Assembly (NCBI GenBank): GCA_003224135.1
Contig: QHYO01000279.1
Location: 1-7,079, forward strand
Source of the DNA: Acidobacteriota bacterium
GTDB lineage: Bacteria > Acidobacteriota > Terriglobia > Acidiferrales > UBA7541
DNA length: 7,079 nucleotides
Direction: 5' to 3'
The notes under the pieces: model-generated
Told to the model about the DNA's origin: nothing
Seen by the model: the letters and a program-made list of their open reading frames with translations, nothing else
Database searches by the model: none
Program-made: the position numbers and the translations under genes
Shown here: positions 2,064 to 5,548 of the stretch, in pieces
How the letters are laid out: the number at the start of each line of letters is the position of its first letter
How positions within the stretch are numbered: the stretch's first letter is position 1

Positions 2064-3239
2064 CTATTCGACGATGATGCGGACGAATTTTTTCTTGCCA
2101 GCGCGGAGAAGAAATTCGGCTGGTTGCGTAAGGTCGACGTCCTTGCGAAAATCGTCGACGCGCTGCTCGTTGATTTCGATTCCTCCCTGCTTGATTAGAC
2201 GTTCGGCTTCGCTTTTCGAGGGAACAAGATTCAGCTCCACCAGGAGTGCGGTAAGTTTTTTAGCTGGGCCCCGCGCGAGCTTTTGCGTTGGAGCTTCCGC
2301 GGGGGCTTGGCGGTCGCGGAAAACGCGCTGAAAATTTTCGGCGGCTTTGCGGCCGGCCTCCGGGCCTTGAAAGACGCCGACCACTTCTTCGGCTAACTTC
2401 ATCTTGGCTTCCATGGGATGCAGTTTGCCTCTGTCGACTTCTGACTTTAGGTCGGCAATTTCCTTTTCGGTGCGGTCGGTGACCAGTTCGTAGTAGCTCC
2501 ACATCAGGTCGTCAGGAATCGACATCATTTTGCCGAACATTTCCTGCGGCGGTTCGGTGATGCCAACGTAATTGCCGAGGCTCTTGGACATTTTACGCGA
2601 ACCATCCAGGCCAACGAGAATCGGCATGGTCATGCACACTTGCGATTCCTGGCCGTATTCGCGCTGGATTTCGCGACCCATCAGTAAATTGAATTTTTGC
2701 TCGGTCGCGCCTAGCTCCACGTCGGCTTCGAGTACAACGGAATCGTACGCAACAAGGAGCGGGTAAAGAAATTCGTGAACCGCGATGGGTTGCTGGTTGA
2801 CGAGGCGATTATGGAAGTCCTCGCGTTCGAGCATACGAGCGACGCGATATTTAGCAGCCAGCCTAATGATATCGTAACTCGTGAGCTTATCGAGCCACTC
2901 GCTGTTGTAACGAATTTCAGTTTTTGCGGGATCGAGAATCTTGAATACCTGTTCGAGATAGGTTTTGGCGTTGGATTGGACCTGTTCGCGGGAAAGCGGG
3001 GGACGCGTTTCGCTTTGGCCGGTGGGATCGCCCACCATCGCAGTAAAATCGCCAATCAGAAATACCGCGAGATGACCCATATCCTGGAAATCAACTCCAA
3101 GCTTTGCTCGCAGCGGCTTTCCGGTCTTGCGCGATTTTTCCAGCTTGGCGCGAAGACCTTCTTCCCGAATGATTTCGTGCGCGCCTTTTTTCAAGTAGGC
3201 GAGCTGCTCTTCCACAGGACTAAAGTTGGTTTGCGTCAT
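2064..3239 (-). CDS. tyrS: Tyrosyl-tRNA synthetase with the HIGH-motif segment deleted
   Basis: Class I tyrosyl-tRNA synthetase (cytoplasmic; tyrosine + ATP + tRNA-Tyr to Tyr-tRNA), 391 residues, of the TyrZ-like subgroup. Recognisable parts: N-terminal [32 protein letters not shown] (63-74) with the tyrosine-binding Asp at 71; [14 protein letters not shown] (155-168); [15 protein letters not shown] (172-186); KMSKS (216-220); and a C-terminal S4 RNA-binding domain (about 320-391). After [10 protein letters not shown] (to D50) the family continues with PTAPDxHLGHTVxLRKxxx and then FQDxGH. Here D50 (GAT, 3090-3092) is joined directly to F51 (TTC, 3087-3089), an in-frame loss of about 19 residues including the ATP-binding HIGH motif. 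V163 sits where tyrosine-binding Gln is usual. If the deletion is real the enzyme should be inactive or badly crippled. The start ATG overlaps the purN stop as ATGA (3236-3239), suggesting coupled translation. Family assignment is near certain; function of this copy is doubtful. Confidence 0.93.
3236..3239 (-). promoter_or_regulatory. ATGA stop/start overlap coupling purN and tyrS
   Basis: The TGA stop of purN (3236-3238) and the ATG start of tyrS (3237-3239) share bases as ATGA. Only a weak GAG stands before the tyrS start, so tyrS translation probably depends on ribosomes finishing purN. The overlap is seen directly; coupling is inferred. Confidence 0.7.
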
Positions 3240-3844
3240 CTCAATTGAATTACGCGGCGCCCTTCAAGTTTGAATTTTCCTGCAAGCACAATCTTGACGG
3301 CTTCTGAATAGATGCGGTGCTCTTCCTTCAGGATTCGCGTGCTGAGCGTATCCTCCGTGTCGTCGTCTTCGACAGGGACAACCGCTTGCAGCACGATCGG
3401 GCCCGCGTCCAGATTTTCGTCAACAAAATGGACCGTGCATCCGGCAAATTTCACGCCGTAGTCGAGCGCCTGCTTTTGAGATTCAAGCCCCGGAAAAGAC
3501 GGCAGCAGCGACGGATGAATATTCAAAATGCGCTGTGGAAAGGCCGCAACAAAATGAGGCGAAAGCAGGCGCATATAACCCGCCAGGCAGACGAGATCGA
3601 CACTCGCTTCGTGCAGCGCCGCGACAACCTGCCGGTCATACGGTTCGCGTTCAAGTCCTTTGGAGGGAATGACGCGAGTGGCAAGCCCGCGCGCGTGTGC
3701 GCGATCGATTCCCGGTGCGCCTTCACGATTGCTGACCACGACGGCGATTTCGGCGTTGGGGATGCGGCCAGCAGAAATGCTGTCGGCCAGCGCTTCGAAG
3801 TTAGAGCCACGGCCGCTTAAGAGCACGCCAATGCGCTTGGTCAT
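3236..3844 (-). CDS. purN: Phosphoribosylglycinamide formyltransferase (GART)
   Basis: Cytoplasmic enzyme of de novo purine synthesis that transfers the formyl group of 10-formyltetrahydrofolate to glycinamide ribonucleotide. The 202 residues match the family in length and order. The N-terminal phosphate-binding loop is [15 protein letters not shown] (5-19). [12 protein letters not shown] follows at 38-49, then [10 protein letters not shown] (87-96). The catalytic set is N108 and H110 in [14 protein letters not shown], and D146 in ENLDAGPI, equivalent to E. coli N106, H108 and D144. All three catalytic residues are present and no gap is seen, so the gene looks intact. The start is ATG 3844; upstream bases are TTTTTTCGGTT with no clear Shine-Dalgarno. 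The gene begins 40 bases after the GWxTD gene ends, and its TGA overlaps the tyrS ATG, so these three are likely one transcription unit. Confidence 0.96.
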
Positions 3845-3884: not shown

Positions 3885-5057
3885 TTACGGCTTCAACGTG
3901 AACTCGGCATCGCGAGAGATGGATTCACCCGAAACGCGGTCGCGAACCGTCACTTCCAGCCAGTAGCGGCCTGGCGCGAAGGATGAAAGTGGCACGAGGC
4001 GATTCAAAGTAACCTGTTCGCCGGTTTGGCGAATCGAGTCCGAAGTTTCCGTTGCCATCCAGATCTCCCGTTGACCTTTGAGCAAACGGTAGGTCACGAA
4101 AATGTCCGACTTATGCAGCGCTTCATCGGGCCGCAGGTTGTAGACCTGTAAGAAGAGCCCGAGATTTTCCGCTGGAGAAAATTCGTGGGAAAGGCGCGGG
4201 CGAACCTTGTAGGAGCTAAACAGGCACGCGCCAAGACCAATCCGTCCAGACGGAACGGGCTCAATCTGATCGGCGAGGATGAGCGTGCTCGCGCCCAGCG
4301 TGTCGGCATCGAAGCGAGGTACGTGCAACGCTGTTCCAATCACGCCTACGTTGCCACTCTCCACGTCTTTCACCACAACATCGAGCTTGTACGGGCCTGG
4401 ACGGAGAGGGACCGCTTTCTGAAAGATCGACGATTGCTCGATTGCTTTCTGGAAGAGGGCTGCGGGAACATCGCGAGAGATCGCTTCCTCAAAGGTTTGC
4501 ACAACTCTTCCGGACACCGTGGTGATCTGCGCGTAAACGTTCAACATGGCAGATTGGACACCGTTTTTCTCGCGGTAGGCCATCTCGAGATTTGGAATCT
4601 GCAGCGTGATTGGCACAAACACCGAATCGCTCGTGACTCGTAGGTAGTCCACGCGATAGTCGATGTGTATTGGATTGCGAACCAATCGAGACGAAACAAT
4701 TGCAGCCAAATCCTTCAGGTGCTCGGGCGGCCGCATTACACGGAAATAGCGATCGAGCGTTTCAAATTCACCCATGTTCGCGGGGGCAGAACCGATGGGT
4801 ACAGGAAGTATAGTGCCACCGGGATTGGTGAATCGCCCCGCTTTGCTACCGCCATTCATCATTTCGGAGATACTTAGGCCTACCCCGGGAACATGTGTGA
4901 GCGCATCTTTGTCGCCAGGGTCGCGTGTCAGACGATATTCGCCTGAGCCGCTCGGATCGACAAATTCAAGTTCAATATTGTCGCCAATCTCCTCGAGATG
5001 ACGATAGCGCCACAGCTCCCACGGATAAGTTGAAGTGGAGCCACCACCCTGAAACAT
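3885..5057 (-). CDS. GWxTD-domain protein, C-terminal fragment
   Basis: Open frame of 390 residues from the ATG at 5057. It starts inside the GWxTD domain (MFQGGGSTSTYPWELWRYRH, then IELEFVDPSGSGEYRLTRDP to about residue 47), passes through an Asp/Gly/Pro-rich linker, and then has two or more beta-rich, probably Ig-like stretches. One is at about 138-250 (VDYLRVTSDSVFVPITLQIP onward). The other is at about 270-390, ending PGRYWLEVTVRDRVSGESIS. It has no signal peptide, and the ATG lacks a ribosome binding site (the bases before it are AACGTCCG), so it is probably an internal methionine of the broken gene and not a true start. An automated annotation would likely call it as a gene. TAA stop at 3885-3887, 40 bases before purN. 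Confidence 0.6.
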   Translation of the reverse strand: MFQGGGSTSTYPWELWRYRHLEEIGDNIELEFVDPSGSGEYRLTRDPGDKDALTHVPGVGLSISEMMNGGSKAGRFTNPGGTILPVPIGSAPANMGEFETLDRYFRVMRPPEHLKDLAAIVSSRLVRNPIHIDYRVDYLRVTSDSVFVPITLQIPNLEMAYREKNGVQSAMLNVYAQITTVSGRVVQTFEEAISRDVPAALFQKAIEQSSIFQKAVPLRPGPYKLDVVVKDVESGNVGVIGTALHVPRFDADTLGASTLILADQIEPVPSGRIGLGACLFSSYKVRPRLSHEFSPAENLGLFLQVYNLRPDEALHKSDIFVTYRLLKGQREIWMATETSDSIRQTGEQVTLNRLVPLSSFAPGRYWLEVTVRDRVSGESISRDAEFTLKP

Positions 5058-5404
5058 CGGACGTTGGCGTACGCGATGCGGCGATAGTGCTCTTCTTTAA
5101 AAGAATTGTCACCGAGATCGGGATCGGGATTTCTTAGCTGCCAAAAATGTTCGATGAATTGCTCGCGTTCTTCATTCGTGCCGAGTTCGTCCGGCGTGAT
5201 GATGTAAGGAACGTCGTTGTTCAGCCAGTCGAGGTAACCGAAGCCAAGCTCCCTTAACGCCTTCTTTTTCTGCTGCTTCTGCGTTCGTTCGTCTGCAGAT
5301 TTCGAAGACGTACCGCCAGATGAAGCTGTCTGCTGCCCGTTAGCCGACATCAGAAAGAGGTAACCTATAGTTACGAAAAACAACGAGCGATGGAGTACTG
5401 GCAT
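4928..5404 (-). CDS. GWxTD-domain protein, N-terminal fragment with out-of-frame tail
   Basis: From ATG 5404, 158 residues. Residues 1-23 (MPVLHRSLFFVTIGYLFLMS then ANG) form a Sec signal peptide with likely cleavage ANG|QQ and no lipobox cysteine. A Lys/Gln/Ser-rich linker follows (24-50). Then comes the conserved start of the GWxTD family: YLDWLNNDVPYIITPDE (57-73), EEREQFIEHFWQLRNPDP (78-95) and FKEEHYRRIAYAN (102-114). From residue 115 the frame is wrong (VRCFRVVAPLQL onward), and it stops at 4928-4930, giving a 44-residue tail unrelated to the family. Start choice: GGAGGTG lies five bases upstream of 5404; an ATG at 5536 in the same frame is rejected because it would bury the signal peptide. 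Against family members, about six residues seem missing between E73 and L74. Confidence 0.65.
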   Translation of the reverse strand: MPVLHRSLFFVTIGYLFLMSANGQQTASSGGTSSKSADERTQKQQKKKALRELGFGYLDWLNNDVPYIITPDELGTNEEREQFIEHFWQLRNPDPDLGDNSFKEEHYRRIAYANVRCFRVVAPLQLIRGSCGAIVISRRLATILNLNLSIRAAQANIV

Positions 5405-5409
5405 GAGGA

Positions 5410-5416
5410 CACCTCC
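5410..5416 (-). promoter_or_regulatory. Ribosome binding site GGAGGTG for the GWxTD gene
   Basis: GGAGGTG on the minus strand stands five bases (TCCTC) before the ATG at 5404. It fixes the start immediately ahead of the signal peptide and shows the gene was, or is, well translated. No convincing promoter was found in the rest of the 144-base gap up to 5548. Confidence 0.75.
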
Positions 5417-5548
5417 GTCAGGACTGAATGCTGAAGTAGTTGGCACCCTTGTCCGTCCACCCCTGAGCGGAATCACGACACGTACACACTGCTGGCGACT
5501 AGGAATCGGGAGGTTCGTCAGAGGTTGCCCAGTCAACTTTTGTGAGTG

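Follow-up and report, generated by a model that had tools for sequence, protein, structure and literature searches.

A tyrosyl-tRNA synthetase gene without its HIGH segment in an Acidobacteriota MAG: most likely an assembly error

We identified a tyrosyl-tRNA synthetase gene (tyrS, 2064..3239, minus strand, 391 codons) that lacks the 19 residues bearing the class I HIGH motif in a 7,079-nucleotide stretch of DNA (the window), which is contig C238 of the MAG G000. This HIGH-less protein most likely reflects the assembly rather than a new kind of enzyme. Six other genes of the same MAG are broken, the majority through loss of bases and one of them two genes away, indicating that the gap in tyrS is most likely an assembly error; it is highly probable that the missing segment arose in this way, in which case the source cell would carry an ordinary full-length TyrRS.

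The translation of tyrS matched the TyrRS profile TIGR00234 over the whole protein at 332.4 bits, against a cut-off of 113.8. KMSKS is present, and the C-terminal tRNA-binding part is kept, with the SYY C-terminal domain (PF22421) and the S4 domain (PF01479) both over their cut-offs. The class I HIGH motif is absent, and the match to Pfam tRNA-synt_1b (PF00579) begins only at profile position 30. At the junction (3087..3092, minus strand), codon 50 (GAT, Asp, 3090-3092) directly adjoins codon 51 (TTC, Phe, 3087-3089), and at this point the nearest relatives carry PTAPDIHLGHTVVIRKLKH, exactly 19 residues or 57 nt, in alignment with the window gene. With the relatives as guide, the edges of the gap have at most 2 nt ('AT') in common; the junction is exact and keeps the reading frame, and the overlap is too short to explain a k-mer join. 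The original prediction had described an in-frame deletion of about 57 bases containing the HIGH segment, with Asp50 and Phe51 adjoining, a possible 2-base microhomology, and KMSKS and S4 kept; each of these features was confirmed, and the HIGH-less tyrS is a real observation in this sequence.

We compared the window protein with ORFs from relatives' loci and with the 120 best-scoring of 8000 database proteins, in an alignment of 233 rows in which some genomes are present twice. The full 36-residue segment is found in 226 of the 233 rows, the remainder being three copies of the window gene, with 17 residues, and four rows whose start falls within or beyond it (L031, P0048 and two pieces of L015). 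The pattern H[LIVM]GH was matched by 222 rows, and the four full-length variants read HSGH, HLGF, HFGH and TLGH. A comparison with related TyrRS proteins had been proposed as a check, and the short form was absent from every relative's row spanning the site in this alignment. A genus-wide DNA search also found extra bases between the tyrS blocks that flank the junction in relatives; in G009 two such blocks overlap by one query position and stand 56 bases apart, giving 57 extra bases.

Among the best 120 of the 8000 scored proteins, the nearest (P0001-P0003, TIGR00234) have 91-92% identity to the window protein over shared residues. This database is clustered at 90%, so that one of its clusters could conceal a full-length TyrRS from the same species. 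Plasmid records were considered as a further comparison set and left out, the 108 with a TyrRS relative all having less than 60% identity. At 104 columns that are invariant in 119 relatives, the window tyrS contained zero odd substitutions (other sequences: mean 0.39, maximum 13), suggesting either that full constraint acted on the gene until a very recent time, or that it is intact in the organism.

We additionally identified a second lesion within the window, in the gene for a GWxTD-domain protein (3885..5536, minus strand), which consequently appears as two ORFs (4928-5536 and 3885-5057). This gene is two genes from tyrS, the two lesions lie at most 2 kb apart on the same 7-kb contig, and a purN-like formyltransferase gene between the damaged genes (3236..3844, minus strand) is intact, covering positions 1-181 of 181 of PF00551. 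We searched the locus by tblastn with 23 GWxTD ORFs, 22 from relatives and one from contig C452 of G000, which holds another, open GWxTD ORF. Twenty of the 23 gave two blocks in different frames, meeting at 5054-5066, and 15 of these 20 meet exactly at 5063 with 37 residues left out; of the others, one meets at 5018-5027 and two give a single block. At the junction (5062..5064, minus strand) IAYAN directly joins RPMFQGGGSTSTYP, where relatives have EHYASGIPGWKTDRG...GGTYD between, and about 112 nt (37 residues, including the GWxTD motif; net -112 nt against the relative G010) are missing, with a frameshift. All 23 ORFs from the relatives' loci and C452 are open, in a set selected for the motif. 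The lesions in tyrS and the GWxTD gene are alike in having sharp edges with at most 1-2 common bases, and in the loss of well-conserved DNA.

We investigated the distribution of similar lesions across the MAG, which comprises 4.54 Mb in 804 contigs and is 85% complete. The sample consisted of 60 contigs and the window (309 kb, of which 51 kb is N); 24 of the 60 contigs, all shorter than 3,000 bases, are N throughout. As the reference, both here and for the control, we used G010 ORFs taken from 60 stretches (1.2 Mb). Lesions were found in 7 of 52 orthologous gene places, on 14 contigs. These were tyrS (57 nt lost, in frame) and the GWxTD-domain gene (112 nt lost, frameshift) in the window; trpS on C650 (two frame changes, loss of 22-24 residues and of net 26 nt); a permease gene on C234 (net losses of 44 and 88 nt); on C240, both a HlyD-like gene (a small frameshift, net -4, direction not certain) and a permease gene (net loss of 50 nt); and one gene on C243, which we take to be TldD-like (net loss of 22 nt). 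The gene names on C234 and C240 are our own reading of the alignments. Of these eight net changes against G010, only the loss in tyrS keeps the frame, where about a third would be expected to do so without selection (probability of at most one in eight, 0.20).

Three further flagged places were left out, one as a probable paralogue (C15) and two in which the break falls between a gene and an out-of-gene translation (C18 and C31). In-frame stops inside matches were counted neither in G000 nor in the control, and ileS of G000 (contig C451), with one TAG inside and its start at the contig edge, was left out of the lesion count. Neither rpoB nor rpoC gave a match in G000, although it is rated 85% complete; rpoC was also not found in G002 and G029.

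The trpS lesion affects the sole TrpRS gene found in G000 (C650; L002/L223). Its missing residues lie around FIADWHALTSDY, and its N-terminus contains unusual substitutions, with HIGH changed to RIGH. In G003, G006 and G025 trpS is in one frame. The trpS genes of G001, G003, G006, G025 and G027 (L266, L267 and L269-L271) were found to contain about 47-77 extra residues before KMSKS, at approximately profile position 170. A cell lacking TyrRS and TrpRS alike could not live.

The same procedure, applied as a control to 18 loci of relatives (165 kb), found lesions in none of 88 places. The difference from 7 of 52 is significant by one-sided Fisher's exact test (P = 7e-4), for a control made up of few gene families, nearly all around tyrS. 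Five breaks flagged in the control (L036, L040, L047, L048 and L049) involved out-of-gene translations and were dropped. In-frame gaps of at least 10 residues numbered 14 in the control, versus one (tyrS) in G000; we read the 14 as natural length variation, and none was counted as a lesion. Eleven of them fall in one stretch of an asparaginase gene and most likely reflect an insertion in the reference G010; of the other three, one lies beside N-masked sequence, another is in a region of variable sequence, and the last is at a match end. An extra control, on different genes in 62 kb of G009, gave only three places, none of them broken, and was too small to be used. Some other fragmented relatives are broken too, with rpoC split across frames in G001 and G005 and a TAG inside tyrS of G005. 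These breaks agree with assembly error as well, and the split of rpoC suggests that MAGs of this kind may often carry similar lesions.

Three of the lost blocks lie in well-conserved DNA. Ranked by nucleotide conservation within each gene, 79 of 392 windows stand above the lost tyrS block (17 relatives), 42 of 524 above the lost GWxTD block (13 sequences), and 12 of 394 above the lost trpS block (5 sequences); this argument from conservation is biased, as conserved DNA makes a lesion easier to see. The loss of such blocks is consistent with breaks in the assembly graph at DNA common to co-occurring relatives. The assembler would have lost sequence at the tyrS gap, probably because the graph broke in conserved DNA of this kind, after which the two contig ends would have been joined without the intervening bases. 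Alternatively, a single chimeric low-coverage read may have entered the consensus.

A search of the genome for a second tyrS, also proposed with the original prediction, was negative for the available sequence of G000 (85% complete, partly N). The only PF00579 matches were on C238, the tyrS of the window, and C650, which is trpS, and a DNA pattern for PDIHLGHTV allowing up to 3 mismatches had no match in the searched sequence. A second copy of TyrRS or TrpRS could nonetheless be hidden, given the incompleteness of the genome and its short contigs that read N. Two TyrRS-like places were not found in any of 14 same-genus genomes, each of which gave no more than a single TyrRS-like place and a single TrpRS-like place in the PF00579 search. 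One member of the genus, G007 (96% complete), had zero PF00579 matches, so that neither TyrRS nor TrpRS was found in it. A literature search for aminoacyl- or tyrosyl-tRNA synthetase paralogues without HIGH found none.

The original prediction left open whether the gene is dead, repurposed or an artefact, and of these the artefact is favoured, both by the excess of lesions over the control and by the second lesion in the window. Assembly error also accords with the short distance between these two lesions, with the keeping of frame in only one of eight changes, with the unaltered constraint on the rest of tyrS, with the lack of any short-form relative, and with a fragmented MAG in which rpoB and rpoC have no match. 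Counting against it are the precise in-frame junction, which has no sufficient overlap, the N-terminal substitutions of trpS, which look more like decay than a join, and the lack of any PF00579 match in the nearly complete G007. We regard it as unlikely, but a serious alternative, that the organism, or part of its population, truly carries the deletion, tyrS being a fresh pseudogene and a second TyrRS elsewhere charging the tRNA. Such a copy could be missed in a genome 85% complete with 24 of 60 sampled contigs all N, the absence of decay in the remaining tyrS also agrees with a very recent event, and microhomology of at most 2 nt at the junction is as in illegitimate recombination. This explanation is opposed by the lack of two TyrRS-like places in any of the 14 same-genus genomes, and would need wholesale decay to account for six more damaged genes, trpS among them.

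Of the readings considered, the least likely is a working TyrRS without HIGH. It is very improbable, judged on the sequence, that the short protein would be a functional or repurposed enzyme that does not need the motif, for example a tRNA-binding regulator, and we give equally little credence to a true loss of HIGH by clean in-frame deletion, with selection for what would be a tRNA-Tyr-binding or KMSKS-only protein. The retention of the frame, KMSKS, the C-terminal domain and S4, the normal constraint on the remaining protein, and the failure to find a second TyrRS in the searched sequence of G000 would each suit such a protein. Against this, no other short form occurs in the 233 rows, and the lesion close by in the GWxTD gene shifts the frame and takes out the hallmark motif of that protein family. 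One study reports, moreover, that mutating either histidine of HIGH reduces the activity of TyrRS (PMC5919687). The suggestion of a repurposed TyrRS is not upheld, as no relative examined has the short form and the remaining protein sequence shows normal constraint.

Assembly error, as the preferred explanation, indicates that a draft metagenome can make a catalytic motif seem cleanly lost in frame, in a way that resembles new enzymology. In tyrS and in the GWxTD gene alike, the lost block contains the hallmark motif. Since three lost blocks lie in well-conserved DNA, two of them with such a motif, a motif that seems lost in a MAG should be backed by reads or by counting similar lesions elsewhere in the same assembly. 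Were the deletion real and the protein active, a HIGH-less TyrRS would call the accepted class I mechanism into question.

Compared with known systems, the window protein shares the domain order of bacterial TyrRS (TIGR00234), with KMSKS, the SYY C-terminal domain and S4 all kept, and differs in the 19 residues with HIGH, which bacterial TyrRS has and the window protein lacks. IleRS2 (Brkic et al. 2023, PMC10485003) provides an example of a class I enzyme that has taken on a changed HIGH motif. IleRS2 and the window TyrRS are both class I synthetases with a non-canonical HIGH region; in IleRS2, however, HIGH is altered and the enzyme role kept, whereas in the window TyrRS the whole segment is absent. 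A further parallel is offered by the local assembly errors of MAGs, which Chen et al. (2020, PMC7111523) describe as lacking perfect support from even one read, and as leaving incorrect protein-coding sequences in databases. Those errors were judged by read support, whereas the lesions reported here are known from the consensus alone. In both cases the coding sequence is wrong or incomplete, and the present assembly contains an excess of similar lesions over its relatives, in a control of few gene families. The relatives carry the tyrS segment intact, and here such damage is recurrent across the assembly.
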